IMG/VR virus record: IMGVR_UViG_3300037010_002261
Location: 1-64,000 of that record
DNA from: a virus
Direction: 5' to 3' (one strand)
Length of the DNA: 64,000 bases
This document shows, piece after piece, positions 5,672 to 28,173 of this stretch (the stretch's first letter is position 1; every line of letters begins with the position of its first letter). The notes beneath the pieces are model-generated. The model ran no database searches, was not told where the DNA came from, and saw nothing but the letters and a program-made list of their open reading frames with translations. Both the position numbers and the translations under genes were made by a program.

Positions 5672-6256
5672 ATGAGGATGATTGTAGCGGTTGACGCTGA
5701 CAACGCAATTGGCTGGTCCGACGGTAGGTTGCCGTGGAAGTCAACGCGTGACATGAAGCGGTTCAAGGAGCTGACAAGCGCTCCTCGAGCTAACGGCGGC
5801 CAACCTACTGTGGTCATGGGCCGCAAGACCTTTGACTCAATCGGCAAGCCTCTGCCCAACCGTGTCAACTTCGTGCTAACGCGTGATCAGCACGCCTACA
5901 AGCGCATCGATGACGCTGGTGCTCAGGCGCTGTCTCAGAGCCTTAGCGAGTACGCCTTTGACAAAGAGGCATGGCTGATCGGCGGCGCATCGCTGTACGA
6001 CTACGCTCTCGACCACGGCTTGGTGACCAAGCTCTATATCACATGTGTCCACCTGCCCGGGCCGCAGCTAGGCCGCTTGACAGGCTCCTCTGGCGCGGAT
6101 GTTCGCCTCAAGCACAACCTCCACAACTGGGTCGACTTCATCAAGGCTGAGCAAGCCTTCGGTCGTACCTGGCTTGTGCGAGACATGAATTCCCCCACCA
6201 CACCCTATCCCGAAGAACCTGGCCTTACCTTCATCACCCTTGAGAGGATCTCATGA
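5672..6256 (+). CDS. frd: Dihydrofolate reductase
   Basis: 194 aa. Reduces dihydrofolate to tetrahydrofolate with NADPH, supporting thymidylate or hydroxymethyl-dUMP synthesis. Seen: N-terminal MIVAVDADNAIGWSDGRLPW (the family's A-x-N-x-I-G and L-P-W signatures), then VVMGRKTFDSIG (NADPH loop) and a C-terminal WLIGGASLYDYAL, all in the expected order. RBS AAGAGGAG precedes ATG 5672. A TACAAT box at 5642-5647 could be a -10, but no good -35 is visible. Its stop overlaps the next ATG. No thymidylate synthase lies in this window. Confidence 0.92.
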   Translation: MRMIVAVDADNAIGWSDGRLPWKSTRDMKRFKELTSAPRANGGQPTVVMGRKTFDSIGKPLPNRVNFVLTRDQHAYKRIDDAGAQALSQSLSEYAFDKEAWLIGGASLYDYALDHGLVTKLYITCVHLPGPQLGRLTGSSGADVRLKHNLHNWVDFIKAEQAFGRTWLVRDMNSPTTPYPEEPGLTFITLERIS

Positions 6257-10076: not shown

Positions 10077-10526
10077 ATGTCTGACCTGTACGCTGCTATC
10101 AAGGAAGCCCAGCTCGCCGCTCGCAAGCTGCGCGACGCTGCCATCGTCAACCCGTTGACCACCTTGATGGGTGACATCGGCACGCTGGCCAAGAACGCCA
10201 ACCGTGCCGTCACCGACGCTGACGTTGTCGGCAAGCTGAAGACCTTCCGTGACAACGTCAACCAGACCATCGACCAGGTCGCTGACGAAGCCACCAAACA
10301 GGTGCTGCAGGCTGAGAAGGCGCTGTATGAAAAGTTCTTACCGACGCAGATGAACGAGCAGGAGCTGACAGCTGCGATCAAGGCAATCATCGCCGACGTG
10401 CAGGGCGCCAACCCGGTGGACTACAAGGTCAAGATCAGCGACGTGATGCCGCGCCTGAAGGAGAAGCACGCGGGGCTCTACGACGGCGCCATGGCCTCCT
10501 TCATCATCAAGGTCCAGCTGCTGTGA
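10077..10526 (+). CDS. GatB/YqeY-domain protein
   Basis: 149 aa, the size of free-standing YqeY. Helical N-terminal half, then EKALYEKFLPTQMNEQELTA, the conserved E-x-F-L-P-x-Q-x(2)-E-E-L block of YqeY, and a C-terminal MPRLKEKHAGLYDG in place of the usual M...K.....D. Family knowledge: YqeY resembles the tRNA-binding tail of GatB; its cellular role is unsettled. It has its own promoter and a GGAGG site. Possible link to tRNA use, given the tRNA-rich genome (inference). Confidence 0.75.
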   Translation: MSDLYAAIKEAQLAARKLRDAAIVNPLTTLMGDIGTLAKNANRAVTDADVVGKLKTFRDNVNQTIDQVADEATKQVLQAEKALYEKFLPTQMNEQELTAAIKAIIADVQGANPVDYKVKISDVMPRLKEKHAGLYDGAMASFIIKVQLL

Positions 10527-10858
10527 GCCTATCAGGACCTCCTGTCAAACCTAACAGAGATTGGCGAGAGGTCCTGCTCAAAGTCCAACAGCTGCTCATC
10601 GAGCGTGGCTTGGAGGCTACACTCCATGACCTGCGGCGCTATGACGAGACCGAAGGCTATACAGCGACAGCTGACTTAACAGTCAACAGGCATGTCTGGG
10701 CTATCGGCTTCGGCCTGCGGGAAGCAGGCGGTCATGCCGTTAGGCGCTCTCGTCACGAGTACCTCGACTTCACGAATGCTGAGAGCCTCTACAACCTGAT
10801 TGCCGGCGATCGCGTGCTCGCCTACACGCTAGAGCGTCTCGACCGAGCGGCTTGCTAA
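10523..10858 (+). CDS. Hypothetical protein
   Basis: 111 aa from GTG 10523 overlapping the YqeY stop (GTGA). Its N-terminal KVQQLLIERGLEATLHDLR is reminiscent of the L-x-x-Q-Q-x block of the paralogue family on the opposite strand, but the match is weak. It converges with the 10855 gene, their ends overlapping by 4 nt. Confidence 0.55.
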   Translation: MSLSGPPVKPNRDWREVLLKVQQLLIERGLEATLHDLRRYDETEGYTATADLTVNRHVWAIGFGLREAGGHAVRRSRHEYLDFTNAESLYNLIAGDRVLAYTLERLDRAAC

Positions 10859-11226
10859 TCGCTCTCGTGCCGTTGACTACGGTCAACCGTTAGCATTAGC
10901 TTAACAGTTTTCACTAAGCCTTCAGCATTGCTGAAATGGCCTGCATTTGAGTGGCTAAAGTTATTGATGTCATGTGGGTCACCGTTTGTATACGGCGCCA
11001 CCCAGATATCGTTGGGAGCCCCATCTGTTGGGTCCTCTGATACCCAATAGAAGCAAGCAACAAACGGCTCCCCGTTGGCTTCAAAGTAGCGCAATTGAGT
11101 CTTGTCATCTTGCTCGTCATGCTTTGTCAGCTTGACATCGATGTCAACGTCGCTTGCTAGCTGTTGAAACTTGAGCATGAGCCGTCTGATGTTGAAGGCC
11201 TCTTCGAGCAGTTGGCTAAGCTTCAT
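10855..11226 (-). CDS. Putative internal head protein, leader family
   Basis: 123 aa. N-terminal MKLSQLLEEAFNIRR resembles capsid-targeting leaders of T4 internal proteins (hydrophobic-x-x-(F/L)-(L/I)-x-E-A). It is followed by LMLKFQQLASDVDIDVKLTK, a block shared with the 11252 and 11438 neighbours and weakly with the 26566 and 53612 genes. The rest is unrecognised. An AAAAATACC word 13 nt upstream may be a degraded late box. Packaging in the head is inference from the leader. Confidence 0.6.
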   Translation of the reverse strand: MKLSQLLEEAFNIRRLMLKFQQLASDVDIDVKLTKHDEQDDKTQLRYFEANGEPFVACFYWVSEDPTDGAPNDIWVAPYTNGDPHDINNFSHSNAGHFSNAEGLVKTVKLMLTVDRSQRHESD

Positions 11227-11251: not shown

Positions 11252-11438
11252 TCACCGAACTCTCCCTTTTAACACGAAGAAGGCATTTACATGATGCCCG
11301 CCGTCAGCATGATCGGTGAGCATCTTGGTTAGCTTGACATCGAGCTCGGCATCCTCCGCGAGCTGTTGAAACTTCAGCATAAACTTGCGTGCGTTGAACG
11401 CCTGAGACTCGACGAGCTGTTGTAGCAGGGCAAAACAT
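11252..11438 (-). pseudogene. Frame-disrupted, shortened paralogue of the leader family
   Basis: The stop of the 11438 gene and an ATG overlap (TGATG), but from that ATG the frame gives nonsense after MF. Skipping one T of the TTTT run at 11432-11435 restores ALLQQLVESQAF, KFMLKFQQLAEDAELDVKLT and a short tail ending at TGA 11254-11252. So this is a third copy, about 61 aa, either mutated, mis-sequenced or frameshifted. Confidence 0.55.
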
Positions 11439-11797
11439 CATTCCTCCAGCGAGTCTAGGTTGAGCTTGATCATCTTCACGATGTCAGCTGCAACAGCAGG
11501 CTCAAAGACGCAGTCGCCGTCAACGTCGTAGTTATTATCGCCGTCCCAGTCAATGGCCAGCACGACTAGGTTCTCTGCCCGCCCGCCTAACCACTCGTTT
11601 GGTGCATGCATGCACATCTTGAGGCTAGTATCTGCCTTTGACGCAGTGAAGTTTGAGCTCGGGCCATCCTCGTCGCCGAACTTGGTCAGCTTGACATCGA
11701 TGTCAGCGTCCTCGCATTCTTGCTGGACACGCAGCATTAGCGACTTGAACTTCTGCTTCTCGAAGCTTTCGCTGAGCTGTTGTAACAGCTGAAACAT
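11438..11797 (-). CDS. Putative internal head protein, leader family
   Basis: 119 aa. N-terminal MFQLLQQLSESFEKQ (leader-like, with S-E-S in place of x-E-A), then FKSLMLRVQQECEDADIDVK and LTK, clearly paralogous to the 10855 protein. The start overlaps the PAS gene's stop (TGATG). The C-terminal part (YDVDGDCVFEPAVAADIVK) differs from the sister copy, so only the first 45 residues are conserved. Confidence 0.6.
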   Translation of the reverse strand: MFQLLQQLSESFEKQKFKSLMLRVQQECEDADIDVKLTKFGDEDGPSSNFTASKADTSLKMCMHAPNEWLGGRAENLVVLAIDWDGDNNYDVDGDCVFEPAVAADIVKMIKLNLDSLEE

Positions 11798-12477
11798 CAG
11801 ATTTCTACGCGTGCGTGCTCGTAAGTTGGGGCAGGTGAGCCAGCGATCTGCGCGATCTTGCAGAGGAAGGTCACGTCCTCAAGCTCCTTAGGCTGTGTGT
11901 CTAGCAAGGAGATGATGACGCGCAGCGGGTGGATTGAGTCGCCTGACTTGAGCACGATGCAGACAGGCTCGTCAAGGTGCATCGCTACCTCCTGCGTCTT
12001 TAGCAGGTACGCCGTGCGAGCGGTGTCGCATAGCTCATTGTAGGTGCAGACATCGCTTTCCTTGACCTTGCTGATGATCAGCTTAGAGCATTCAGCGATT
12101 GAGATCCGCTTGCGGCGGGAGCCTGTCAGGATGTGGTCAATGCGCTTCCCGATGATTTCGGTAATGGGCCTGTTTAGTAGCTCGGCGCCCGCGTGATTGA
12201 CATGGATGATATCACCCTTAAAGTCGACAAAGGCTACGCCTTCGTCCTTCATTGTGGTGAATAGCCCGATGCTTTGATCGAGCTTTTTGAGGCCAGACTT
12301 AAGCTTCTCAGAAACTTCAGCGATAACGGCAATGGTCTCTTCAGTAGACTTATTCAACGCAGCGTTATCGGCAAGCAGAGCTTGCTTCAGCACTTGCAAA
12401 CGTTGACGTTGTTGAGCCATCGTTGCGCTAACCGCTAGGTCTTGCAGCTTTGCGCTGCGGTCTTTCTTAAAGATCAT
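11797..12477 (-). CDS. PAS-domain protein
   Basis: 226 aa. A coiled-coil-like N-terminus (residues about 10-75) precedes a PAS-like core: EGVAFVDFKGDIIHVNHAG, then LLNRPITEIIGKRIDHIL. No kinase, cyclase or DNA-binding domain follows, so it is a bare sensor or scaffold. Terminal residues overlap the next gene's start. In a phage it could sit in the same late operon as the internal proteins downstream; function unknown. Confidence 0.65.
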   Translation of the reverse strand: MIFKKDRSAKLQDLAVSATMAQQRQRLQVLKQALLADNAALNKSTEETIAVIAEVSEKLKSGLKKLDQSIGLFTTMKDEGVAFVDFKGDIIHVNHAGAELLNRPITEIIGKRIDHILTGSRRKRISIAECSKLIISKVKESDVCTYNELCDTARTAYLLKTQEVAMHLDEPVCIVLKSGDSIHPLRVIISLLDTQPKELEDVTFLCKIAQIAGSPAPTYEHARVEI

Positions 12478-12993: not shown

Positions 12994-14925
12994 ATGACGA
13001 CCCTTCTAGAAGACTTCGACACATCCTTCAGCAAGTCCCGGAAAGAGGAGACCCTTACCTTCACCGAGTTCCTCCAACTGGCAAAGAAGGACCCATCGGT
13101 CTATGCTTCGCCGGCGCAACGGATGCTGAAGGCTATCGGAGAGCCCTCCCTGATTGACACCCGCAACGACCCGCGGCTGAGCCAGATCTTCTCCAACAAG
13201 ACCATCAAGGTCTATCCCGCCTTCGCCAACTTCTACGGCATGGAGGACGCGGTCGAACAGATCGTGGCCTACTTCCGGTCGGCGGCTGACGGCCTCGAAG
13301 AGTCCAAGCAGATCTTGTACCTGCTGGGCCCGGTCGGCGGCGGCAAGAGCTCGATTGCGACTCGCCTCCGCGAGCTGATGGAGCAGGAGCCTGTCTACGT
13401 CATTGACGGCTCGCCTGTCTTCGAGAGCCCACTGTCCATCTTCAACACCCCTGAGCTGCAAGACAAGCTCGAAGCTGACTTTAACATCTCGCGCACGGCC
13501 ATCCGCACCATTCCGTCTCCGTGGCTGATCAAAAAGCTCGAAGAGGTCGGCAGCATCGGCAGGCTGAAGGTCCGCAAGCTCTACCCGTCGCAGCTGCGTC
13601 AGCAAGCTTCGATGCGCGTCGAGCCGGGCGACGAGAACAATCAGGACGTCAGCGCGATGGTCGGCAAGCTGAACATTCGCATGATTGAGAAGTTCGAGCA
13701 GGACCACCCATACGCCTACAGCTTCTCAGGCGGCTTGAACCGCGGCAACAACGGCATCGTCGAGATGGTCGAGATGTTCAAGGCGCCGATCAAGATGCTG
13801 CACCCATTGCTGACCGCGACCCAGGAGCGCATGTACGCCGGCACCGAAGCCATCGGCTCCATCCCGTTCGACGGTATCATCCTGGCCCACAGCAACGAGA
13901 GCGAGTGGTCCACCTTCCGCAACAATAAGAACAACGAGGCCTTCCTGGACCGCGTCTGCATCGTCAAGGTCCCGTACTGCCTGCGCGTCACCGAAGAGCA
14001 GCAGATCTACGAGAAGCTCATCCGCAACTCCGAAGTCGGCCGCACCGCCAGCATCGCTCCAGGCACCCTGAAGATGTTGGCTGAGTTCTGCGTCATGTCC
14101 CGCCTGATTGTGCCGCAGAACAGCACGCTCTTCTCGAAGCTGCGCGTCTATGACGGCATCAACATCAAGGCCGAGGACCCGAAGGCAAAGCCCATCCAAG
14201 AGTACCGCGATGATGCGGGCGTCAAGGAAGGCATGGAGGGCCTGAGCACCCGCTTCGCCTTCAAGATGCTGTCGAAGACCCTGGCGTTCGACAACGAGGA
14301 GAAGGCAGCCAACCCAATCCACCTGATGTACGTGCTGAAGACCCAGATCCCGCAGGAGCAGTTCCCGAAGGAGAAGGAGCAAGGCCTGATCGAGCTGATC
14401 GACGGCGTGCTGCAGGAGAAGTACCTCGAGTTCCTGGAGAAGGACATCACCACGGCCTTCCTGGACAGCTACAGCGAGCTGTGCCAGAACATGCTCGAGC
14501 AGTACTACTACTACGCTGACGCTTGGGTGCAAGGCAAGGACGACTACCGTGACCCGTCGACCAACTCGGTCCTCGAGCGCGAAGACCTCGACCGCGAGCT
14601 GAGCAAGACGGAGAAGCCCGCAAGCATCTCCAACCCCAAGGACTTCCGGAACGACATCGTCAACTTCATCATCCGCTACCAAGCGCAACATGGTGGGAAG
14701 CTGCCGGCTTGGAACTCCTACGAGAAGATCCGCAGCGCAATCGAGAAGCGCGTGATCGGCAACATCGACGAGCTGCTGCCCGTCATCTCGTTCGCGCCGA
14801 AGCGCACCGAAGAGGACACGAAGAAGCATCGCGACTTCCTGTCTCGCATGCGGACCCGCGGCTACACCGAGCGTCAAACTCGCATCCTGTGCGAGTGGTT
14901 CATGCGCGTGCGCAAGTCGAGCTAA
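12994..14925 (+). CDS. prkA: PrkA-type serine protein kinase (YeaG-like)
   Basis: 643 aa, the size of bacterial PrkA. Seen: an AAA+ part with Walker A GPVGGGKSS near residue 111, SPLSIFNTPELQ, a conserved block VEMFKAPIKMLHPLLTATQE and IPFDGIILAHSNESEW; then the C-terminal kinase-like region with FDNEEKAANP and a final basic stretch. Known: PrkA (E. coli YeaG) is a nutrient-stress kinase encoded with YeaH, and SpoVR/YcgB is its usual third partner. Both partners occur downstream here (16662 and 18548), so the phage carries the complete module. Its use in infection is unknown. Confidence 0.9.
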   Translation: MTTLLEDFDTSFSKSRKEETLTFTEFLQLAKKDPSVYASPAQRMLKAIGEPSLIDTRNDPRLSQIFSNKTIKVYPAFANFYGMEDAVEQIVAYFRSAADGLEESKQILYLLGPVGGGKSSIATRLRELMEQEPVYVIDGSPVFESPLSIFNTPELQDKLEADFNISRTAIRTIPSPWLIKKLEEVGSIGRLKVRKLYPSQLRQQASMRVEPGDENNQDVSAMVGKLNIRMIEKFEQDHPYAYSFSGGLNRGNNGIVEMVEMFKAPIKMLHPLLTATQERMYAGTEAIGSIPFDGIILAHSNESEWSTFRNNKNNEAFLDRVCIVKVPYCLRVTEEQQIYEKLIRNSEVGRTASIAPGTLKMLAEFCVMSRLIVPQNSTLFSKLRVYDGINIKAEDPKAKPIQEYRDDAGVKEGMEGLSTRFAFKMLSKTLAFDNEEKAANPIHLMYVLKTQIPQEQFPKEKEQGLIELIDGVLQEKYLEFLEKDITTAFLDSYSELCQNMLEQYYYYADAWVQGKDDYRDPSTNSVLEREDLDRELSKTEKPASISNPKDFRNDIVNFIIRYQAQHGGKLPAWNSYEKIRSAIEKRVIGNIDELLPVISFAPKRTEEDTKKHRDFLSRMRTRGYTERQTRILCEWFMRVRKSS

Positions 14926-14929
14926 AGCT

Positions 14930-15250
14930 ATGCCACTCCAGTATGACGACGTCCCAGGCAGCTGGGGCACAGGCTCTCGGGAGTGGCCTGCCCTTGTCTT
15001 CCCTACGAGCGACCTTGCTCGTAGGGCCTACATCGCTTGCACTAAGGCGAACGTAGTCCCCTACGGCAGCTACGTGCTGATGGATGACACGAACTATCCA
15101 CGCCAGTGGAAGAACGGCAAGGCTACCACTGAGCTGCGGATCGAAACGATTCCGCTCCGCGACAAGCTGGAGGAGTACCTCTATGCAAGCCCCTACAAGA
15201 CCTATGAGGACTTGAGGGATCACTACATCAAAGAAGGACTCTGGAAATGA
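14930..15250 (+). CDS. Hypothetical protein
   Basis: 106 aa, starts 4 nt after the PrkA stop. Contains GSYVLMDDTNYPRQWKNGKA and ends with YEDLRDHYIKEGLWK. No domain recognised. Same operon as PrkA by spacing. Confidence 0.55.
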   Translation: MPLQYDDVPGSWGTGSREWPALVFPTSDLARRAYIACTKANVVPYGSYVLMDDTNYPRQWKNGKATTELRIETIPLRDKLEEYLYASPYKTYEDLRDHYIKEGLWK

Positions 15251-15366
15251 GCAACACAACCCTCCTCACCGTCGCCGCCTTAGGCGTCATCATAGTCGGC
15301 GCCCTCGCCGCATGTGTCAACATCATGCTTGGCCGTTACAAAAGCTACGACGGCTCTGGAGATTGA
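15247..15366 (+). CDS. Single-pass membrane microprotein
   Basis: 39 aa: MSNTTLLTVAALGVIIVGAL then ACVNIML and a polar tail. One transmembrane helix. ATG overlaps the upstream stop (ATGA). A Cys after ALAA could be a lipobox-like site, but no proper N-terminal charge precedes it. Confidence 0.45.
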   Translation: MSNTTLLTVAALGVIIVGALAACVNIMLGRYKSYDGSGD

Positions 15367-15403
15367 GGATGTGATACAATTGGCAATGTCTTAGGAGATC
15401 GCC

Positions 15404-15595
15404 ATGTACATCCTCATCTTTGTCGTCACCTTCATGTCTACCGTTCAAGGTCCGTCCAACAGTCAGCTGACCACGGCCACGATTCAGCAACAGCATGGGT
15501 CCAAGGACCGATGCGAAGCCGCTCTCAAGCAGCTGAGGCTGAACATCGAAGGCACCGGCTCCCAAGTTCGCATCGCTCAATGCACTCAGATGTAA
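15404..15595 (+). CDS. Small secreted or membrane-anchored protein
   Basis: 63 aa with a hydrophobic N-terminus (MYILIFVVTFMSTVQG) that could be a signal or anchor, and two Cys in the polar remainder. TACAAT at 15375-15380 followed by TTAGGAG gives a plausible start region, though no -35 is visible. Confidence 0.45.
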   Translation: MYILIFVVTFMSTVQGPSNSQLTTATIQQQHGSKDRCEAALKQLRLNIEGTGSQVRIAQCTQM

Positions 15596-16020
15596 AGTAC
15601 GACCGGCATTACCTAACCGTTGACGCGGCTAGGAGCTTCAAGCTAGCCATCGCCGACTGTCAAGCTAGCTGCCCAGAAGACGTAGACCCTCGGTTGCATG
15701 AACTGCAGCTCGAGGGCATGAATAGCCAGCTAGAATCGTTGCTCGCTGAGCTCGACGAGCTTGAGGCTGAGCTGATCGCACCCTGCTCGCACTGTGGGCG
15801 TGTGCCCAGCGAGGACCTCTCTGACACTACCTACCCTGCTGGCCGTGACGGCACTTGGCTTGTCTGCTGTTCCTTTCCAGAAGGTGGCTGTGACGTTGAA
15901 GCTCGAGGACCCACGCGTACAGCAGCAATCGAAAATTGGAACAATGGACTCGCGCATGCACAACCCCCTCTCGACGAAGCACAATCTCCGCGTCGTAACT
16001 GGCGGCCAAACCGGGGTTGA
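15580..16020 (+). CDS. Lar-like zinc-ribbon protein
   Basis: 146 aa from ATG 15580. A helical N-terminal half with an E-rich coiled coil (LESLLAELDELEAELIAPC) leads into CSHCGR ... WLVCCSFPEGGCDVEARG and TAAIENWN. The CxxC ... C...C and final A-x-x-x-W-N match the Lar/restriction-alleviation-like zinc ribbon seen in many phages. Anti-restriction function is only suggested. Its end overlaps the next gene by 77 nt. Confidence 0.5.
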   Translation: MHSDVKYDRHYLTVDAARSFKLAIADCQASCPEDVDPRLHELQLEGMNSQLESLLAELDELEAELIAPCSHCGRVPSEDLSDTTYPAGRDGTWLVCCSFPEGGCDVEARGPTRTAAIENWNNGLAHAQPPLDEAQSPRRNWRPNRG

Positions 16021-16624
16021 CCTCGCAGGCCTGCGAGCCGCACAATGCGTAGGCCTTCGCACAGGTGGCCTCGCCCCGACTGGCTTTAAAACCACAGCCG
16101 GCGGCAAGCCTGCGCTGGCAAAGACATTCGGCCTGACCGAATGCCACGGTGGCTATAGCTACCGCACTCGCAAGAACGTGCAGGAGAGCGACGCAACGCT
16201 TATCATCGCGCACGACATGGAGTCGAGCGGCACAAGGCTAACAATCGCCGCAGCAGAGACCTCGCAGAAGCCGATCTACAAGCTCGTGCTAGGTGGTGAC
16301 GGGTGGCGAACAATGGTCAAGCAAGACACGGTCAACGCCGCTGTCGCTTGGCTGCTTGCTGAGATCGCCGATCGCGAGGACTTCACGCTCAACGTTGCTG
16401 GCAACAGCTCGCTGACTTGCTCAGGCATCTTCATCCCAGCGTTCCTTCACTTGCTCAAGATTTTTGAAGCCGCTGCGCTGAAGGTTGACGCCGAGGCCGC
16501 ACAACCGATTCAGGTTCTTGTACAGCGCTACTTCCAAGACGGTCACCTCACGCAGGCGCTGAATGACAACTTTGACTACCACGGTGAGCTTGATCCCCGT
16601 GGGTTAAGGGGACTGATTGTCTAA
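15944..16624 (+). CDS. Putative molybdenum-carrier/SLOG-fold protein
   Basis: 226 aa from ATG 15944 (ATG 15956 is an alternative). The N-terminal 110 residues carry VVTGGQTGVDLAGLRAAQCV, GLAPTG and a later ESSGTRLTIAAAE, the signature of the putative molybdenum-carrier/lysine-decarboxylase-like SLOG family that binds nucleotide-type ligands. The last 100 residues are unrecognised. It sits between PrkA and YeaH genes. Molybdenum binding is a database family name, not something I can show; a nucleotide-sensing role is equally possible. Confidence 0.65.
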   Translation: MDSRMHNPLSTKHNLRVVTGGQTGVDLAGLRAAQCVGLRTGGLAPTGFKTTAGGKPALAKTFGLTECHGGYSYRTRKNVQESDATLIIAHDMESSGTRLTIAAAETSQKPIYKLVLGGDGWRTMVKQDTVNAAVAWLLAEIADREDFTLNVAGNSSLTCSGIFIPAFLHLLKIFEAAALKVDAEAAQPIQVLVQRYFQDGHLTQALNDNFDYHGELDPRGLRGLIV

Positions 16625-16661
16625 GCAATAGATACAATCATACCAGAGGAATAGGAAGACC

Positions 16662-17972
16662 ATGGCAATCATCATCGATCGCAGGAAGGCCGCAAACCGC
16701 GACCGAACCTCTGAAAATCGCGGCAGGCTGCTGCGGCGCTACAAGGGTGCAATCAAAGAGCAGCTGCCGAAGATCCTAGGCGATCGCAAGCTGCTCGACT
16801 CGATCAAGGGAGGCGGCGGCAAGGTCACCGTTCCCAAGCGTGACCTCTCTGAGCCCCAGTTCACTTACGGTGAAGGCGGCATGAAAGACACGGTCCTGCC
16901 AGGCAACAAGGACTGGGTCGAGTACGACACAGTGCCTAAGCCTGAGAGCGGCGAAAGCGGTGGGGCAGGTGACGGTCCTGACGGCATGGACGAGTTTAGC
17001 ATAGTGCTGTCCCGTGACGAGTTCCTCAACATGCTCTTCGAGGACTGCGAGCTGCCGTTTATGCTCGAGACCCTGCTGGCTAAGCAGACGGAAACCGTGC
17101 ATGAGAACGCAGGCTTCCAAGTTGCAGGCTCGCCCAACCGGCTGTCGGTGATCCGCTCCTACAAGAACTCGAAGGCCCGCCGCTTGAGCTCGGGCGCTAT
17201 GATCGGCGCTGAGTTGAAGGAGCTCGAAGAGGAATTCAACAGGCTCACGGCTGAAATGGTCGATAACGACCTACCGCTTGACCATCCGACATCGAAGCGC
17301 GTGTTCGAGCTACGTGACCAGATCGCTGAGCTGTTGCGCCGTAAAACCGTCTTGCCGCTCTTTGACTCATCTGACCTCCGCTTTCGGACTCGAATCGAGA
17401 AGAAGGTGCCGAAGACGCATGCTACGATGTTCATGCTGATGGACAACTCGGGCTCAATGGGTGAACGCGAGAAGACCATCGCCCGCAAGTTCTTCATCCT
17501 GCTGTACCTCTTCCTCGACCGCAACTACGATCAGATCGACCTGCGCTTCATCTCACACACGACTGAAGCCGAAGAGCTGCCCGAGGATGAGTTCTTCAAC
17601 ACCCACAAGAACGGCGGCACGATCGTGTCGTCGGCGCTCGACCTGCTAATTAAGTGCATCGAGTCCCTGAGAGGCAAGACCAACATCTACGTTGCGCAGG
17701 TCTCCGACGGCGACAACACAGGCACCGACAACGGCACTTGCAGCGAGCTGCTGATCGATGACATCCTGCCGTATGTCAACTACTTCGCCTACGTGCAGGT
17801 AGAGCAGGAAGGAGCACAGAACAGCTCGCCGTCCTACTACTCGCGCAATAGCCTCTGGTCAACCTACTCGGCGCTCAGCGATGCGCACCCCAACCACGCT
17901 TCCAAGCAAGTCTACCATGAGCGGGACATCTTCGGCGTTTTCCACGCATTCTTCTCCACCACCAAGACATGA
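16662..17972 (+). CDS. yeaH: YeaH/YhbH-family (DUF444) VWA protein
   Basis: 436 aa, matching the family size. N-terminal MAIIIDRRKAANRDRTSENR and LLRRYKGAIKEQ are hallmarks of YeaH. A von Willebrand A core follows near residue 260: MLMDNSGSMGEREKTIARKF (MIDAS DxSGSM), then HTTEAEELPEDEFF and GGTIVSSAL. Known: encoded with PrkA in bacteria and thought to act with it in stress adaptation. GAGGA precedes the ATG. A TACAAT at 16633-16638 may be a -10 without a clear -35. Confidence 0.9.
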   Translation: MAIIIDRRKAANRDRTSENRGRLLRRYKGAIKEQLPKILGDRKLLDSIKGGGGKVTVPKRDLSEPQFTYGEGGMKDTVLPGNKDWVEYDTVPKPESGESGGAGDGPDGMDEFSIVLSRDEFLNMLFEDCELPFMLETLLAKQTETVHENAGFQVAGSPNRLSVIRSYKNSKARRLSSGAMIGAELKELEEEFNRLTAEMVDNDLPLDHPTSKRVFELRDQIAELLRRKTVLPLFDSSDLRFRTRIEKKVPKTHATMFMLMDNSGSMGEREKTIARKFFILLYLFLDRNYDQIDLRFISHTTEAEELPEDEFFNTHKNGGTIVSSALDLLIKCIESLRGKTNIYVAQVSDGDNTGTDNGTCSELLIDDILPYVNYFAYVQVEQEGAQNSSPSYYSRNSLWSTYSALSDAHPNHASKQVYHERDIFGVFHAFFSTTKT

Positions 17973-18178
17973 AAATCCAACTCACCGCATTGACCGTCAA
18001 GCACATCTTCGGTCGCTCCCTTGTCACTTGTGTTCCCAGGGACGAGAACGGCAAGATGCTCGGAGCTGAACAGCCGCTCGCTTCATACCTCAACGAGATT
18101 AAGAAGTCCGATTACGAGATCATCAACGCCCAAGAGGTACTTCAATGCGTCGTCGCGCAGTATGGCTTTGGTGCCTAG
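17969..18178 (+). CDS. Hypothetical protein
   Basis: 69 aa, ATG overlapping the YeaH stop (ATGA). Unrecognised. Its last 34 nt overlap the lipoprotein gene. Confidence 0.55.
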   Translation: MKIQLTALTVKHIFGRSLVTCVPRDENGKMLGAEQPLASYLNEIKKSDYEIINAQEVLQCVVAQYGFGA

Positions 18179-18555
18179 CGCTCCTTGTTGGCTGCGAGGC
18201 CAGCATCAATGTTGAAAGTCATCCGATCGTTGCAGCTCCGCAAGCTACCGTTCGCAATGGCATCGTCGAGCTTCGCAAGGACAACCTCTTGGCTCACGTC
18301 ACGGTAGCTCGAGGCGGTAAGGTTCCCATTACGTTCACGTTGCTCGAGAACCTTGACGACAAGACCAGCTACGTCTCGCGGACTGAGCATGACTGCAAGG
18401 CCCGCACCTCTACCATCAAGTTCCTCGTGGCTTATGACGCCGACTCAAATGCGGTGCAAGAGTCCACGATGAACACCAAGATCGTGATGGAGCCTGGCTC
18501 TATCAGCGAAGCTCAGCTCAATCTCGCCTGCCCCAAGGAGGGTCCCAATGTCTGA
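18145..18555 (+). CDS. Predicted lipoprotein
   Basis: 136 aa. N-terminus MRRRAVWLWCLALLVGCEAS is a basic n-region, hydrophobic core and lipobox LVGC, so Cys17 should be lipidated and the protein anchored in a membrane. The rest is beta-rich (KVPITFTLLENL). It lies inside the YeaH-SpoVR interval and overlaps SpoVR by 8 nt. A surface exclusion role is a guess from location in phages. Confidence 0.6.
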   Translation: MRRRAVWLWCLALLVGCEASINVESHPIVAAPQATVRNGIVELRKDNLLAHVTVARGGKVPITFTLLENLDDKTSYVSRTEHDCKARTSTIKFLVAYDADSNAVQESTMNTKIVMEPGSISEAQLNLACPKEGPNV

Positions 18556-20125
18556 AGATAGCAAGCTCCTGTTCACGTCGGGCGCCGACTGGAATGAAGA
18601 GCTCCTCCGACGCTGCTGGGAGGAGTGCAAGGTCATCGCGCAAGAGGACATGCGCCAGACCTACTACGAGCCTCAGATTGAAGTGGTCTCGGCCGCACAG
18701 ATGCTCGAAGCTTATACCTCAAGCGGCTTGCCGGTCTGGTACTCGCACTGGTCATACGGCAAGGAGCTGGTCAAGTCGGAGGCAGACTACAAGAAGGGCC
18801 TCATGGGCCTGGCGTACGAGATCGTCATCAACTCGAATCCCTGCATCGCCTACCTGATGGAGGAGAACAACGCGTTGGTCCAACTGTTGGTCATCGCGCA
18901 CGCATCGATCGGCCACTCCGCTGTCTTCAAGAACAACTTCATGTTCAAGAACTACACGGACGCGGCGGGCATCGTCAGCTACCTGAGCTTCGCTCGCCGT
19001 TACATCTTGATGTGCGAAGAGCGCTACGGCGTTGACGAAGTCGAAGCGGTGCTTGACGCGTGCCATGCACTGAGCCTGTACGGCACAGACAGCGCTAAGC
19101 GGAACCGCGCTCTGAACTCTGAGCAAGAGGAGAAGAAGGCCATCGAGCGCTTTGCTCAGCAGCTGTATGACTATGACGCTGTGTGGCAGAAGGTCGGCAA
19201 AGGCTTGGTCGACAAGGCAAAGGCTGACCAAGCACCGCCTGCCGAGGATGACGAAGAAGGCTTGCTCGCAGAGCCGCAAGAGAACCTCCTCTACTTCATC
19301 GAGAAGCACGGCAAGATCCCAGCGTGGAAGAAGGAGCTCATCCGCATCAACCGGATGATCGCTCAGTACTTTGACCCACAACGCAAGACCAAGGTGCTGA
19401 ATGAGGGCTACGCTACCTTCACTCACTACTACATCCTCAACAGGCTGTATGACAAGGGCCTAATCGACGAAGGTTCGATGCATGAGTTCTTCCGAATGCA
19501 CTCGGGCGTCATCGCGCAGCGTGCGCAAGCCGCCTTCAACCCGTACAAGCTCGGCTTTGAGATCTTCATGTCCCTCAAGGCTGCCTGCGAGGATGGCTGC
19601 AAGGACCCCGATGACGAGCCGTACCACGGCCACTTGAAGGGGCAACCGTGGCAGGATGTCTTGCAAGAAGCCATGATGAACTATACCGATGAGACCTTCA
19701 TCCTGCAGTTCTTGGCGCCGTCGGTAGCGAAGAAGCTCGAGATGTTTGCGATCCGTGACCACGGACTCTATGACGAAGAGTACCTAATCACCGAGGTGGC
19801 TCGTCCTGAGTCCTTCCGTGAACTGCGCGCTAAGCTGGCCGCACAGTACCACATCTCGCGCTACAAGCCTGACATCCAGGTCATCGGAAACGACGATGAC
19901 GTGCTAAGGTTGAAGCACTTCGTTGTCAACAACCGCCCCCTCAACGAAGAGCAAGCCAATGACGTGATCGCGCATGCCTCCTACCTTTGGGGCGGCACGG
20001 TCAAGCTGACGATGTACATCGATGACGGCGACGGTGAAACCAGCGTGCCGCATGTCATCATGGCCCTCAACGGCGCAAGGGTTGAGAACAGCATCGATAT
20101 CGGCTGGGGCGTGTTTACATTCTGA
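18548..20125 (+). CDS. SpoVR-family protein (YcgB-like)
   Basis: 525 aa, as in the family. Signature stretches: LPVWYSHWSYGKELVKSEAD, YEIVINSNPCIAYLMEENN, VIAHASIGHSAVFKNN, GTYFTHYYI-like YATFTHYYILNRLYDKG, and a C-terminal REL...YHISRYKPDIQV. Known: SpoVR is a spore-cortex protein in Bacillus, and its YcgB homologue works with PrkA and YeaH in enterobacteria. It completes the phage module. The start overlaps the lipoprotein gene. Confidence 0.9.
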   Translation: MSEDSKLLFTSGADWNEELLRRCWEECKVIAQEDMRQTYYEPQIEVVSAAQMLEAYTSSGLPVWYSHWSYGKELVKSEADYKKGLMGLAYEIVINSNPCIAYLMEENNALVQLLVIAHASIGHSAVFKNNFMFKNYTDAAGIVSYLSFARRYILMCEERYGVDEVEAVLDACHALSLYGTDSAKRNRALNSEQEEKKAIERFAQQLYDYDAVWQKVGKGLVDKAKADQAPPAEDDEEGLLAEPQENLLYFIEKHGKIPAWKKELIRINRMIAQYFDPQRKTKVLNEGYATFTHYYILNRLYDKGLIDEGSMHEFFRMHSGVIAQRAQAAFNPYKLGFEIFMSLKAACEDGCKDPDDEPYHGHLKGQPWQDVLQEAMMNYTDETFILQFLAPSVAKKLEMFAIRDHGLYDEEYLITEVARPESFRELRAKLAAQYHISRYKPDIQVIGNDDDVLRLKHFVVNNRPLNEEQANDVIAHASYLWGGTVKLTMYIDDGDGETSVPHVIMALNGARVENSIDIGWGVFTF

Positions 20126-20133: not shown

Positions 20134-20271
20134 ATGGCCGATAGGTTGAGTAGATTGTGCCGCAAGGAGATGCGCCTACGAGAGCAACAGCTCAAGCAGG
20201 CGTATGAGCTCAAGGAGCTGCTTCGACAGCTCCGCGAGGACATCGTCAAGCTCCAAAGGCTGCAAGCATGA
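20134..20271 (+). CDS. Small coiled-coil protein
   Basis: 45 aa, MADRLSRLCRKEMRLREQQ then KQAYELKELLRQL and DIVKLQRLQA: one continuous amphipathic, leucine-zipper-like helix. Starts 8 nt after SpoVR and overlaps the Nudix ATG (ATGA). Confidence 0.5.
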   Translation: MADRLSRLCRKEMRLREQQLKQAYELKELLRQLREDIVKLQRLQA

Positions 20272-20702
20272 ACTACGAGAATCCCACACCTGTCGCGGTC
20301 AACATGGTAAGAGTCCTTGACAGTGACCTCAATGTCATCGGCCTGCTGGGGATCGAACGGGGCATCGAGCCACAGCTAGGCGGGCTGGCGATGCCTGGTG
20401 GCTACGTCGACAAGCTTGAGTCCATCGAGCAAGCCGCTTCGCGCGAATTTGCGGAGGAGGTAGGCATCTCCTTCTCCCCTAGTATGTGGAGGCTGTCTCA
20501 CTCTGAGATTACGGCTACAAACCGTGTGCTGATCTTCTGCGAGGCAATAGTATGCATTCCCGAGCCGAAGATCGCTGAGCTCAAGCCTAACCGAGAGGTG
20601 CGGCGCTTTTGCGTGCTGACACGCGAGTCAAAGCTGTGCTTCCCGCTTCATCAGAAAGCTCTCGACGCTTACTTTAACAAGCAGGTGCATGATGATCGCT
20701 GA
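20268..20702 (+). CDS. Nudix hydrolase
   Basis: 144 aa. Nudix box GGYVDKLESIEQAASREFAE then EVGI (G-x5-E-x7-R-E-x-x-E-E-x-G-hydrophobic) at residues about 44-67. Cleaves nucleoside diphosphate linked compounds; the exact substrate cannot be read. It overlaps the NADAR gene by 14 nt, which hints at a shared ADP-ribose or NAD theme. Confidence 0.85.
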   Translation: MNYENPTPVAVNMVRVLDSDLNVIGLLGIERGIEPQLGGLAMPGGYVDKLESIEQAASREFAEEVGISFSPSMWRLSHSEITATNRVLIFCEAIVCIPEPKIAELKPNREVRRFCVLTRESKLCFPLHQKALDAYFNKQVHDDR

Positions 20703-21141
20703 GTTCAAGGGTGAACACCGTTGGCTGAGCAACTTTTGGCCTTGCACCGTCAAGTACAAGGACGTGCTCTTCCCGTCATCGGAGCATGCTTATGTCATGG
20801 CCAAAGTCGAGCCGCACCTTTGGCCCGCGGTCTTGGACCTGGTCCTTGAAGCAAAGACAGCGGGTCAAGTCAAGCGGCTCGGGCGCAAGCTGCCGCTTCG
20901 ACCTGACTGGGACCTGGTCAAGGTGCAGGTGATGCGTGACATCCTTGAAAGCAAGTTCTCAAACACCGGCCTTGCGGCGATGCTGCTAACCACGGGTGAT
21001 GAGGAGCTTGTGGAGGGAAACCACTGGGGTGACACCTTCTGGGGCGTCTGTGACGGCGTCGGTCAAAACTGGCTAGGTCGGCTGCTGATGGGAATCAGGG
21101 CTGATCTGGCAAGTAAGCGAGCGTCTCCCGAAGCTCCTTAA
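20689..21141 (+). CDS. NADAR-family protein (YbiA-like)
   Basis: 150 aa. Family blocks are clear: WLSNFWPCTV, PSSEHAYVMAK, VKVQVMRDILESKF, TGDEELVEGNHWGDTFWGV and GQNWLGRLLMGIR. Known: NADAR proteins act on ADP-ribose-linked substrates, and some reverse ADP-ribosylation of nucleic acid bases. Paired with a Nudix gene here and with an ART-like gene at 42214 elsewhere in the window, it may protect against or recycle ADP-ribosylation (inference). Starts ATGATG; either M is possible. Confidence 0.88.
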   Translation: MMIAEFKGEHRWLSNFWPCTVKYKDVLFPSSEHAYVMAKVEPHLWPAVLDLVLEAKTAGQVKRLGRKLPLRPDWDLVKVQVMRDILESKFSNTGLAAMLLTTGDEELVEGNHWGDTFWGVCDGVGQNWLGRLLMGIRADLASKRASPEAP

Positions 21142-21349: not shown

Positions 21350-23950
21350 ATGAAGCTGCTCGAGGAAGAGATCAAGTTCGAAGGCAACCTCCCCCAGGAT
21401 GACCGCTTGACCTTCAAGCTGAAGTCCAACCCGAAGATGTTCGCGATCCTGTCGGACGGCATCTACACCGACAAGATTATGGCCGTCATCCGCGAGCTGA
21501 GCTGCAACGCTCGTGACTCCGCGGTCATGGCTGCCATCGCCGACCCGGATCCTGCTCGCAAGTTCGGCTTCATGGTCAACGTGCCGACCACGCTCGACAA
21601 CAACTTCTGGGTCGAGGACGTCGGCCTGGGCATCGACCCCGACCACATCGTCGACATCTTCTGGACCTACGGCGCATCGACCAAGACCCACACGAATGAC
21701 GCCATCGGCGCTCTCGGCCTCGGCTCGAAGAGCCCGTTCGCCTACACGAAGAGCTCGTTCCTCGTCATCAACCGATACAACGGCGTCGAGTACAAGTACT
21801 TCTGCTTCATCAACGAAGGCGGCGTGCCGGACGGCAAGCTGGTCTTCCAAGCTCCTACTGACTTGCCTAACGGCGTCCGTGTCGAGCTCGCGGTTCGCAT
21901 CGATGACATCAAAGCCTTCCGCCAACGGATCATCCGCTTCTACAGCTACTGGAACCCCGCTGACCTGCCCACCTTCCAAGGCGATACCTCGGTGGTCAAG
22001 GCCATCGAAGAGGCCCGCGGCAACCCGATCTCTACCGGCAGCGACTGGAACCTCCGCAAGTACAGCCATGACAACGCCGGCCCGGTCGCCGTCATGGGCG
22101 GCGTGCCCTACCGCATCACGGCCCAGTCCTTGCCCCGTGTTTCAGATCGCGCTCGCGCCATCCTGAACCAGCCGATCACGATCACCTTCCCCATTGGCGC
22201 CTTGAGCTTCCAGGCTTCGCGCGAGGAGCTCAGCTATGACGAGCCGACGTGCAAGGTCTTGAGCGTTGCATTTGACCGGATCGCTGGCGAGCTGGTTGAA
22301 AAGTCCAAGTCGGACCTGCACAACATGGACTCGCCGAACGCTTTCCTCAAGAAGTTCAACGAGAAGTACCGCCTGCTGTACGAAAGCTTCCCGTTTGTCG
22401 CTCAAATCATCATGGGCGAGACCTTCAAGCTGGCCGACGGCCGCGAGGTCGTGCCGAGCAAGCTGCGCACCGACCGCATTCATGTCAGCAAGGGAGAGCA
22501 CCTGCTATTCAATGTCCAGTTGATCTCCGCGGACTACAAGATATACGTCAAGGGGCCGCAGCGCTTCGGCCTGACGGCGATCTCCTTCGTGATGGTGGAG
22601 CATCCTGGCACGGTTGACCCGAAGACCAAGCGCACGGTCGGTGCCCAGAACAACACGATCGACTGGTTCTCGCCGGCGCTCGAGCCGAAGCCGTTGCTGA
22701 ACGTCAACATGAAGCGGCGGGCGGCGAACTACCTGCATGAAGGCCACAAGGTCACAAACACCAACTTTGACCTGTACACGCGCGAAGGCAACATCGCCTT
22801 CATCATCAATGACCTAGGCGAGCGTGGCTCGGAAGGCATCCGCTTCTACGCTGAACAGTTCAACGACCCTGACCTGATCCGAGCCTACCAGAGCGCCGCT
22901 CTGTACTTCATCGACGGCTTCGGCGGCGGCTTGAGCGCAGCGGACACTCTGGTCAAGTTCAGCGAGCATGTCAAGGGCACGATCGCGGACGGCGCTAAGG
23001 TCGTGCTGCTGAGCACGCTGCCGAAGTTCAAGTTCCCTGAGCCACCGAAGCGTGACTTCGTAGCAGCAAAGAAGCCTGCGCAGAAGGGCACGATCGAGCA
23101 GCGCTTCGACATGTACACCTTCCCCGTTGACCAAGCCGGCAAGCACATTCAGCGCGAGCTCTACAAGCTGGATGGCCTGATCAACCTGAGCTTCTACAAG
23201 CCCACCCACAGCCGTGACTATGCACGTCACGAGCTGAAGCGGCCAATGCTGTACGTGCCCACCGTGCACGGTCAACCGCTGGGCGTGCACAAGCAGTTGA
23301 TCGAGAACGAGCTGGTCGGCGCCTTGTTCACGCTCGGCTTGCTCGAGCCTTTCATGACAGACGGCAAGCCATTGATGATCGGCTTGCTGTCTGACCGGCA
23401 GCAAGAGGAATGCAAGAACAAAGGCGTAGAGCTTGTCGACATGGCTGAGCTGCTCAAGCCGATCAAGGACATGGTAACAGCCGACGCCGGCTTGCTCAAG
23501 GCAATGCAAAGCCGGTTAAACGCCCTTGACCGGTCGGACGGCGCGCGGATCGCTAAGGCCTTCATCAATGAATCCAAGTTTGTCAAGGCGATGGGGCCGC
23601 TCGGCCCGAACAACGTCTTTGTTAAGCTGCGGGGCATCACAAACGTGGTCAAGAGCGCGCTGATCGGCAACACGAAGCGCTCGGCGCTCGTGTACGTGGT
23701 CCACACGATCGAGCGTCAGTTCGATGACATGCGAACCCTGCTAGAAGGCAAGGTGCGCCTTGCCGACGTGCTCAAGGCTTACCCGCTGCTCGAGCACCTG
23801 GGCGATGAGCTCTACGATCGCAAGGAGCCCTTCTTCCACCAAGTTGTTGCCTACTTGGTGGGTGTTGACCGCACGATCGCTGAAGCTGAAGCCCAAGCAC
23901 GACGCGACACCGAAGCTGCTTACTGGGCCGAAGCTTTGCTGACCGCTTAA
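21350..23950 (+). CDS. rIIA: rIIA-like protein with GHKL ATPase domain
   Basis: 866 aa. The N-terminal third is a GHKL fold: N-box IRELSCNARDSAVMAA (residues about 46-61), G1-like VEDVGLGIDPD and G2-like IGALGLGSKSPFAYTK. T4 rIIA has the same start and size class, and the next gene is rIIB-like, which supports the name. Known: rIIA/rIIB are membrane-associated and overcome Rex exclusion in lambda lysogens and other abortive systems. Strong private promoter upstream, so early expression is likely. Confidence 0.85.
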   Translation: MKLLEEEIKFEGNLPQDDRLTFKLKSNPKMFAILSDGIYTDKIMAVIRELSCNARDSAVMAAIADPDPARKFGFMVNVPTTLDNNFWVEDVGLGIDPDHIVDIFWTYGASTKTHTNDAIGALGLGSKSPFAYTKSSFLVINRYNGVEYKYFCFINEGGVPDGKLVFQAPTDLPNGVRVELAVRIDDIKAFRQRIIRFYSYWNPADLPTFQGDTSVVKAIEEARGNPISTGSDWNLRKYSHDNAGPVAVMGGVPYRITAQSLPRVSDRARAILNQPITITFPIGALSFQASREELSYDEPTCKVLSVAFDRIAGELVEKSKSDLHNMDSPNAFLKKFNEKYRLLYESFPFVAQIIMGETFKLADGREVVPSKLRTDRIHVSKGEHLLFNVQLISADYKIYVKGPQRFGLTAISFVMVEHPGTVDPKTKRTVGAQNNTIDWFSPALEPKPLLNVNMKRRAANYLHEGHKVTNTNFDLYTREGNIAFIINDLGERGSEGIRFYAEQFNDPDLIRAYQSAALYFIDGFGGGLSAADTLVKFSEHVKGTIADGAKVVLLSTLPKFKFPEPPKRDFVAAKKPAQKGTIEQRFDMYTFPVDQAGKHIQRELYKLDGLINLSFYKPTHSRDYARHELKRPMLYVPTVHGQPLGVHKQLIENELVGALFTLGLLEPFMTDGKPLMIGLLSDRQQEECKNKGVELVDMAELLKPIKDMVTADAGLLKAMQSRLNALDRSDGARIAKAFINESKFVKAMGPLGPNNVFVKLRGITNVVKSALIGNTKRSALVYVVHTIERQFDDMRTLLEGKVRLADVLKAYPLLEHLGDELYDRKEPFFHQVVAYLVGVDRTIAEAEAQARRDTEAAYWAEALLTA

Positions 23951-24021: not shown

Positions 24022-25194
24022 ATGGCAATCGATGCAAAGAGCGCGCCGCAGGTCTTCTGGACCAAGAACGCAGTCGGTCTGACCCTGATCGTCAACGGAG
24101 TGCCGGCGGTCGTTGACACGACCAACCCGAACTTCGACCTGATCGAGCAGGAGCTGCGCGCCGGCAAGTACGACCGAGTCCTGGCTCTCGCCAATGTCAA
24201 GCGTACGGTCGCCGAAGCGATCACCAACGCTAACGCTCGCGTGCGCTTCGTTGATGGTGAGCTCTACTGGGAAGGCCCGAAGGGCCCCGAGAAGATCGCC
24301 GGTCCACTCGTGGACCGCATCATCGCCTCTGTCCGCAACGGCAGCACGGCCGAGTCCATTCAGCCGCTGGTCCTGCTGCTGCAGAACATCAGCCGTAACA
24401 AGAAGAAGGACCTCCGCGAGGAGCTGTACCAGTTCCTGATGAGCGGCAAGATGCCCATCACGAAGGACGGTTGCTTCCTGGCCTACAAGAAGGTCGCGCG
24501 AAACTTCAAGGACATCTACACCGGCACGCTGGACAACAGCCCCGGCAAGCTGGTCGCCATGGACCCGGACAAGGTCGACGTCAACCGTCACCAGACCTGC
24601 TCCGTGGGCCTGCACTTCTGCTCGCGCTCCTACCTGAGCCAGTACCGCAGCGATGTCAGCTCACGCACCGTCATCGTCAAGGTCAACCCGCGCTTCGTGT
24701 TCGCCATCCCGACGGACTACCAGAACACCAAGGGTCGTGCCTCCGAGTACTTCGTCGTCGGCGAAGCTCTGGGCGATGCGGCCAAGGACGAGCTGTTCCT
24801 GCAGCCCTTCATCTTCGACGAGAACATGAAGGACGCCGCACCGCAAGTCAAGTTCGTGGAGCAAGGTCCGGAAGGCGCCAAGCAGAAGGCCCGCAAGAAC
24901 GTGGCGCAGCCGAAGGAGACCGTCTCCATCGGCAACCTGAAGCCTTCGCTGAAGGTCCTGGCCGAAGGCTACGGCCTGGCAAAGAACGGCAAGGCCTGGG
25001 TCCGCTTCCAGGACTCCAAGGGGCCGCTGCCGGCTGAGAAGTACACGATCGCCTTCGAGCAAGACGGCACCTACATCTCCTCGATCACTGGCAAGCCGGT
25101 GCCGAAGAGCGACCTGAAACAGCTGTCGGTCGAGACCAAGTCGGTCCGCTCTGCAATGGTCCGCGCCGTGGCCAAGCGCCGCGGCCGCGCCTAA
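24022..25194 (+). CDS. rIIB: rIIB-like protein
   Basis: 390 aa. Middle blocks LVLLLQNISRN, FLMSGKMPITKDGCFLAYKK and GLHFCSRSYLSQY are those of rIIB-type proteins. The basic C-terminus (VAKRRGRA) follows a less conserved linker. Partner of rIIA by family and position; acts in exclusion escape and lysis timing in T4. GGAGAG site before the ATG. Confidence 0.82.
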   Translation: MAIDAKSAPQVFWTKNAVGLTLIVNGVPAVVDTTNPNFDLIEQELRAGKYDRVLALANVKRTVAEAITNANARVRFVDGELYWEGPKGPEKIAGPLVDRIIASVRNGSTAESIQPLVLLLQNISRNKKKDLREELYQFLMSGKMPITKDGCFLAYKKVARNFKDIYTGTLDNSPGKLVAMDPDKVDVNRHQTCSVGLHFCSRSYLSQYRSDVSSRTVIVKVNPRFVFAIPTDYQNTKGRASEYFVVGEALGDAAKDELFLQPFIFDENMKDAAPQVKFVEQGPEGAKQKARKNVAQPKETVSIGNLKPSLKVLAEGYGLAKNGKAWVRFQDSKGPLPAEKYTIAFEQDGTYISSITGKPVPKSDLKQLSVETKSVRSAMVRAVAKRRGRA

Positions 25195-27732: not shown

Positions 27733-27817
27733 GGGGTCGTAGACAGTAATGGCTTCTGCCCGGCCTGTAAACCCGGTGTCCCTGACCAACAAGGTTCGAT
27801 TCCTTGCGGCCCCACCA
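27733..27817 (+). tRNA. tRNA-Tyr (GTA)
   Basis: Acceptor GGGGTCG / CGGCCCC, discriminator A and encoded CCA. Anticodon loop CTGTAAA with GTA, one mismatch at the base of the loop (C31-C39). Variable arm GTC-CCT-GAC, as in class II. T-arm CAAGG TTCGATT CCTTG. Confidence 0.85.
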
Positions 27818-27825
27818 AAAGTAAT

Positions 27826-27906: not shown

Positions 27907-27920
27907 CCCGTAAGACCCTT

Positions 27921-28001: not shown

Positions 28002-28007
28002 CCCACC

Positions 28008-28086: not shown

Positions 28087-28089
28087 TAT

Positions 28090-28172: not shown

Positions 28173-28173
28173 C

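Follow-up and report, generated by a model that had tools for sequence, protein, structure and literature searches.

In bacteria the genes prkA, yeaH and spoVR make up an operon, represented by yeaGH and ycgB in Escherichia coli, by CH02817–CH02815 in Rhizobium etli and by prkA, yhbH and spoVR in Bacillus subtilis. The R. etli operon, confirmed by reverse transcription PCR, is induced by (p)ppGpp and is among the most strongly induced in the stringent response (PMC3188799). A role for yeaGH in nitrogen starvation has been described (PMC4664914), and SpoVR of B. subtilis binds RNA (PMC12456014). Here we report that all three genes, intact and on one strand, occupy positions 12994–20125 of a 64,000-nucleotide stretch of virus DNA (positions 1 to 64,000 of IMG/VR record IMGVR_UViG_3300037010_002261; hereafter the window), as identified with Pfam and NCBIfam profiles. 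The module shares the families, order, strand and motif residues of the bacterial operon. It differs in lying in a phage genome, in having a SLOG protein and small open reading frames (ORFs) interposed and in belonging to a virus-only clade, and its PrkA is 53–62% identical to the proteobacterial proteins tested.

The first gene (12994–14925, plus strand, as are the other two) encodes an AAA+ protein of the PrkA/YeaG family, 643 residues long, which matches PF08298 (AAA_PrkA, E 6e-152) and PF06798 (the C-terminal domain, E 2e-57) over their curated cut-offs and scores 980 bits against NCBIfam NF011999, for which the equivalog cut-off is 576. K118, within the Walker A motif GPVGGGKSS, R229 and K424 are the counterparts of YeaG K116, R232 and K426, the numbering being taken from enterobacterial YeaG and rechecked with E. 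coli YeaG; all three are kept, so the missing catalytic residues that would have refuted the original prediction are not seen. The Walker A lysine is present in 235 of 235 PrkA sequences. The second gene (16662–17972) encodes a YeaH/YhbH (DUF444) VWA protein of 436 residues, matched by PF04285 across residues 4–433 (E 2e-115) and by NF003707 at 416 bits, above the equivalog cut-off of 396. Its metal-ion-dependent adhesion site (MIDAS), D261-x-S263-x-S265 with T320 and D349, is invariant at all five positions in 218 sequences, and no credible match to a sequence relative was found in the Protein Data Bank (PDB). The third gene (18548–20125) encodes a SpoVR family protein of 525 residues (PF04293, E 4e-123; PF24755, SpoVR_C, E 2e-10). 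It scores 532 bits against NF008737, under the equivalog cut-off of 679, and is thus a family member but not an equivalog by that model. Its motifs are H118-ASIG-H123 and N285-E286-G...H293; the residues H118, G122, H123 and E286 do not vary across 214 sequences, and 212 of these retain H293.

The surroundings of the module are those of a genuine phage, as the original prediction had supposed. The contig encodes TerL, UvsX, SSB, helicases, rIIA and rIIB as well as eight tRNAs and a tmRNA. The source virus record is 90,151 bases long. Another IMG/VR contig, 113,079 bases in length, begins near SpoVR and matches at 100% identity. The G+C content at third codon positions (GC3) of the module is similar to that of the phage core genes. 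A promoter and terminator scan returned a number of sites not above chance.

The set is not unique to the window and has been visible in public records since phiYS40. Among annotated phages, tblastn found all three genes in the Thermus phages phiYS40, TMA, YS40_Isch, phiLo, Lalka8, 27a and 27b and in four phages of 595–642 kb (LR756502, LR756504, LR745206 and LR756511); in Thermus phage MN1 they were found both in the annotation and by profile search. The phiYS40 annotation calls them ‘conserved bacterial protein’, SpoVR and serine kinase. The Thermus phages phiYS40, TMA, phiLo, MN1 and Lalka8/27a/27b thus likewise carry VWA, SpoVR and PrkA genes together, in modules that adjoin packaging genes, but they differ from the window in the order YeaH, SpoVR, PrkA, in a PrkA identity of only about 26–28%, in forming a separate deep lineage and in having aspartate at the K424 position. 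The four huge phages resemble the window in having all three genes, and PrkA of the first three falls in the same 21-row clade as that of the window; they differ in genome size, in the detached SpoVR gene of LR756502 and in the placement of LR756511 in a divergent group. A published isolate, the Ralstonia jumbo phage RsoM2USA, is reported to have SpoVR as ORF28 and PrkA as ORF30, annotated singly rather than as a module (PMC8504454).

Single-protein scans of IMG/VR proved too strict, whereas scans with alignments brought up at least 251 relatives of PrkA and at least 191 of SpoVR; the best 80 for each protein were taken. All three genes are present in 135 of the 156 IMG/VR loci, and among the remaining 21 a contig end truncates 20. 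The one that is not truncated, L110 (loci are numbered with the prefix L where they need to be told apart), spans 8.6 kb and carries PrkA and YeaH without SpoVR. It is apparently enterobacterial yeaGH, since its PrkA scores the same as that of Enterobacter phage LAU1 and the 92% identity filter merged it. After identical copies were merged, 106 modules remained, 90 of them complete. The order is PrkA, YeaH, SpoVR in 138 viral loci and YeaH, SpoVR, PrkA in the four Thermus phages among the loci, always on one strand. Because IMG/VR may include mis-called bacterial contigs, a terminase search was made of 30 larger records, and 16 of them gave TerL at E < 1e-25. In all, the three families occur together in the Thermus phages, in the 595–642 kb phages and in at least 90 distinct IMG/VR modules. 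The literature covered, outside which the phiYS40 genome paper lay, contains no paper that treats PrkA, YeaH and SpoVR together or describes a phage module; the main text of the huge-phage paper leaves the three genes unmentioned, and an ocean virome study lists spoVR alone, among sporulation auxiliary metabolic genes (PMC8940887). The papers that could be searched annotate the phage copies gene by gene, not as a module. As a separate observation, Bacillus phage CM1 (L015, LC785692) has a YeaH-like VWA gene at 4611–5564, annotated ‘sporulation protein’ and lying near RtcB, with neither PrkA nor SpoVR in the 10 kb examined.

The history of the three genes was examined in trees that carry Shimodaira–Hasegawa-like approximate likelihood-ratio test (SH-aLRT) support only and were built with a short search. 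The PrkA tree includes 71 bacterial rows (beta, gamma, alpha, Thermomicrobium, Paenibacillus and an even Pseudomonadota sample), phyla outside those named being thinly sampled. The window PrkA lies inside a virus-only set of 21 rows (SH-aLRT 97), which takes in the huge phages LR756502, LR756504 and LR745206, and inside nested virus-only sets of 11 (97) and 5 (99). In the SpoVR and YeaH trees, which contain fewer bacteria, the window again falls in virus-only sets, with L016, L094 and L093 once more its nearest relatives. The three trees agree, so PrkA, YeaH and SpoVR have travelled together, as an old phage lineage and not as captured host DNA. Between close phage pairs the ratio of nonsynonymous to synonymous substitution (dN/dS) is 0.03–0.13 wherever dS is not saturated. 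Purifying selection in the phage copies, together with the virus-only clades, argues that phages use the module. Among bacteria, a true PrkA (E < 1e-90) is present in 27 of 120 Pseudomonadota genomes, and the bacterial relatives examined have the same operon order as the phage module. The module is a known bacterial operon in a form that is widespread, belongs to a phage lineage and bears additions specific to that lineage.

NorQ, CbbQ and RavA are AAA+ proteins, each of which works with a VWA protein. The MoxR AAA+/VWA pairs NorQ–NorD, CbbQ–CbbO and RavA–ViaA combine an AAA+ motor with a VWA protein that has a MIDAS, as PrkA and YeaH would. The predicted model of the window PrkA (mean predicted local distance difference test score, pLDDT, 88.5) combines an AAA+ core with a C-terminal region, residues 381–643, that is helical throughout. 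Its top structural matches are NorQ (Z 15.6 over 243 residues, 3.5 Å) and CbbQ2 (Z 15.4), several of the NorQ matches deriving from NorQ–NorD complexes, and the remaining AAA+ proteins match at Z 14.5 and below; with so small a lead, the MoxR-type AAA+ fold, marked by a helix-2 insert, is a candidate assignment for PrkA. PrkA differs from NorQ in its extra N- and C-terminal regions and does not belong to the same sequence family, and its client is putative. A pairing of PrkA and YeaH as a motor is moderately supported by the model and by analogy, since YeaH, the operon partner of PrkA, is likewise a VWA protein and its MIDAS is invariant. In the NorQD system client maturation depends on the MIDAS of NorD, whereas NorQ binding does not (PMC9976466), and it has been proposed that NorQD rotates the VWA domain, driving metal insertion (PMC13036017); PrkA and YeaG are unmentioned in both papers.

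SpoVR has no sequence relatives in the PDB, and a Foldseek search with its predicted model (mean pLDDT 83.4) gave zero hits at E < 0.001. On structural realignment, all 24 of the best 24 rows are gluzincin metallopeptidases, at Z 7.0–10.7, the first unrelated row being at Z 5.8; they include M3 oligoendopeptidase F (Z 10.7), leukotriene A4 hydrolase (10.1), M32 carboxypeptidase (9.4) and an ACE homologue (about 7). Residues ~10–400 of the model would thus share the overall fold of the gluzincin families M1, M3 and M32, with which no sequence similarity was detected. As in gluzincins, a histidine pair and a glutamate are placed on two predicted helices, the histidines on one (109–129) and E286, with H293, on another (282–302), so that H118, H123 and E286 would be placed as in a gluzincin metal site and are three putative metal ligands. 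SpoVR differs from gluzincins in having HxxxGH or HxxGH without the glutamate of HExxH, and in the ~160 residues that separate the histidine pair from the NEG motif. The residue after H118 is alanine or valine in 214 of 214 sequences, so the peptidase glutamate is missing. SpoVR, the third protein of the module, is probably metal-binding. A side observation concerns the SpoVR of LR756504, a 636 kb phage (L007:18519–20426), which carries an intein-like insertion exactly inside the NEG motif (NEG|C...HN|CATF); the Pfam intein match of the insertion is below cut-off (E 0.0095).

We propose that the module is a phage-resident prkA-yeaH-spoVR operon, inherited within large phages, in which a PrkA–YeaH motor of the AAA+/VWA type acts on SpoVR and sets host physiology, a reading to which we give an even chance of being right. 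PrkA would form an AAA+ ring with YeaH as its partner, by analogy with NorQ–NorD, CbbQ–CbbO and RavA–ViaA; ATP turnover by PrkA would move YeaH, whose MIDAS would grip the client. The most likely client would be SpoVR, with its gluzincin-like fold, putative metal ligands and missing peptidase glutamate, which PrkA–YeaH may load, remodel or regulate. By this means an infecting phage would put its host into the stress state that the bacterial operon normally sets under the control of (p)ppGpp and RpoS, and a slow or starving host may be kept viable long enough to complete a long replication cycle. The SLOG protein, a microprotein and a lipoprotein encoded within the module would be lineage-specific regulators or sensors. 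Phage control of starved hosts, as first suggested for this locus, is accordingly best phrased as a reasonable hypothesis about the part that the module might play in infection.

Several observations weigh against this proposal. NorQ and CbbQ lead other AAA+ folds by only about one Z unit, and the top rank for the PrkA model in Foldseek is Lon; comparison of SpoVR with M1 peptidases by hhalign gave no sequence-profile link; and SpoVR of LR756502 lies far from its PrkA–YeaH pair. Deletion of prkA in R. etli produced no clear stress phenotype (PMC3188799). Published E. coli selection lines give a weak hint in its favour. In lines evolved in excess iron(III), yeaG E555* and ycgB H127Y each rose to ~0.64 in one population, and a single T7-resistant line had fixed yeaG E414K (PMC10044975). 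In alignment, YcgB H127 corresponds to H123 of the window SpoVR and YeaG E414 to E412 of the window PrkA, both positions being invariant in their families' alignments; each mutation comes from a single population, and the evidence is weak. The PrkA–YeaH–SpoVR complex, the metal in SpoVR and the effect on infection are all inferred.

Genes between and beside the three core genes, all on the plus strand unless stated, give the module its local character. A 106-residue ORF without a family match follows PrkA directly (14930–15250). The uncertain gene at 15511–16020 has the C..C / C.C pattern of a Lar-like zinc ribbon, but the ribbon of the original prediction is weak here, with a match to PHROG 11877 at E 1.5e-4 and a Pfam match below cut-off (E 0.013). 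The SLOG-fold protein of the original prediction is real: a cpYpsA-type protein (15944–16624, E 1.4e-22), which probably starts at the ATG at 15944 rather than at the GTG at 15794 of the longest ORF, and which has a homologue at the same place in L016 (a 389 kb record with TerL) and L094 (80 kb). Between YeaH and SpoVR, a 69-residue microprotein (17969–18178), whose start overlaps the YeaH stop, is conserved in both relatives (E 3.7e-7). The predicted lipoprotein that follows (136 residues, 18145–18555) overlaps the end of the microprotein and the start of SpoVR; its LLVGC lipobox-like signal is read from the sequence, but its family matches are weak, as is the secreted-type ORF in this position in L094. 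The overlapping ends of YeaH, the microprotein, the lipoprotein ORF and SpoVR suggest an arrangement like a translationally coupled operon. Upstream of PrkA, a divergent PAS-like protein (11797–12477, minus strand) is kept at that place in L016 and L094, and downstream of the module all three have an rIIA homologue (21350–23950 in the window). The block common to the window, L016 and L094 therefore runs from the divergent PAS gene through PrkA, the small ORF, cpYpsA, YeaH, the microprotein, the small or secreted ORF and SpoVR to rIIA, with rIIB next in L016 and in the window (24022–25194); it is specific to this subgroup. L016 and L094 have an extra protein of 244–253 residues between cpYpsA and YeaH, HD-like in L016, and L094 a DDAH/arginine-deiminase-like gene between SpoVR and rIIA (L094:18125–18940). 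In the window, SpoVR is directly followed by a Nudix hydrolase-like gene (20268–20702) and an overlapping gene for a NADAR/RibX-type protein (20689–21141; TIGR02464 above its cut-off), the latter with a weak match to a NADAR anti-phage protein. Lying beside a module that contains SLOG, these two genes (20268–21141) are a possible NAD/ADP-ribose handling pair.

Other readings of the locus must be set against a motor acting on SpoVR. The family name, and the label ‘PrkA kinase’ of the original prediction, imply that PrkA is a serine kinase, or a Lon-like protease, which signals to host targets with YeaH and SpoVR as accessories, so that the phage rewires host stress signalling through phosphorylation or proteolysis. 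The AAA+ part of PrkA does resemble Lon, sequence profiles give weak echoes of Lon and RavA, and the YeaG AAA+ and ‘STK’ mutants K116A, R232A and K426A and a truncation fail to complement in nitrogen starvation (PMC4664914), all three residues being kept in the window PrkA. Serine kinase activity is, however, contested: for B. anthracis PrkA, assays in vitro gave negligible activity both as a kinase and as a protease (PMC13001217), against older reports. Kinase folds are absent among the matches listed for the PrkA model, a list taken up by the AAA+ domain that leaves the C-terminal region unprobed, and that region is modelled as all helix. Moreover, the K424 position is aspartate in the five most divergent phage PrkAs (Thermus phages and LR756511), so K424 is not universally needed. 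The name ‘PrkA kinase’ is thus doubtful, a better fit is an AAA+ motor with a VWA partner, and we regard signalling by a kinase or protease as unlikely. That the module is recently acquired host DNA without a phage function is exceedingly improbable. Its gene order is that of the bacterial operon, and one phage record, LAU1, clearly carries host yeaGH, its PrkA grouping with E. coli in the tree and the copy therefore being host DNA; against this stand the virus-only clades of three gene trees, the low dN/dS, a GC3 like that of phage core genes and the conserved phage-specific neighbours. The idea of a passenger is largely refuted by these sequence comparisons, and we rejected host contamination or recent capture on trees, GC3, dN/dS and synteny. 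The deposited ‘complete’ LAU1 genome (L002, MN688132) opens with host yeaG and yeaH at 1–3308, probably a leftover bacterial flank.

The neighbouring genes invite two further explanations. With rIIA and rIIB adjacent, the module might serve lysis timing or superinfection exclusion, and rIIA does follow SpoVR downstream, at a distance of 0.07–1.7 kb in the window, L016 and L094 and of 3.7 kb in L046. Most modules, however, have no rIIA within the 10 kb taken, those of the Thermus phages sit by packaging genes instead, and rIIA was found in only 6 of 13 large records searched, in three of which it is far from the module. The suggestion that the module delays lysis is thereby reduced to a weak, circumstantial link at the level of the window's subgroup (with L046 within 10 kb), and we hold this role to be very unlikely. 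Alternatively, the block could counter host defence through NAD/ADP-ribose handling by SLOG, Nudix and NADAR, with PrkA, YeaH and SpoVR as part of it. The SLOG gene inside the module, the Nudix and NADAR genes directly downstream and the HD protein of the relatives speak for this, but in L016 and L094 neither Nudix nor NADAR adjoins the module, the three core genes are stress genes in bacteria, and PADLOC returned zero matches to known defence systems, on which ground identity with such a system was rejected. We consider a counter-defence block quite unlikely.

Other features of the window were noted in passing. The tmRNA gene (40300–40629) has the predicted tag ANDSVYAMAA, and the eight tRNA genes (27733–37329) are unusually Leu-rich, with five for Leu and two for Tyr. 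Two adjoining small ORFs on the minus strand (10855–11226 and 11438–11797) have the motif ‘D[IV]DVKLTK’ in common and resemble paralogues. At 33926–36462 lie a phrog_1735 protein (693 residues) and a phrog_2018 protein, ~52% identical to unnamed proteins of Caulobacter phiCbK-like phages and present in >500 phage records. Two large ATPase genes upstream of the module (AAA, PF00004, and phrog_1250) are at 1029–3551 and 4069–5598, and a YqeY-like protein, a dihydrofolate reductase and an Fpg/MutM-like DNA glycosylase are encoded at 10077–10526, 5672–6256 and 38397–39338, each in the order listed.

In conclusion, the recurrence of the module in ~90 virus contigs, in clades of its own, suggests that the three proteins work as a portable unit under selection outside host regulation. 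A broader reading, which we put forward tentatively and think more probably wrong than right, is that PrkA–YeaH–SpoVR represents a further major type of AAA+/VWA activation, its client a non-peptidase, gluzincin-fold, metal- and RNA-binding protein, long kept and diversified by large phages as a general switch of host physiology. If true, this would supply a mechanism for a widely conserved bacterial operon that is strongly induced in the stringent response of R. etli. The phage copies offer compact systems, for example Thermus phages on T. thermophilus, in which the unit is removable, and the reading of the module as an AAA+/VWA motor with a gluzincin-like partner yields sharp biochemical predictions that may replace the doubtful ‘kinase’ label.

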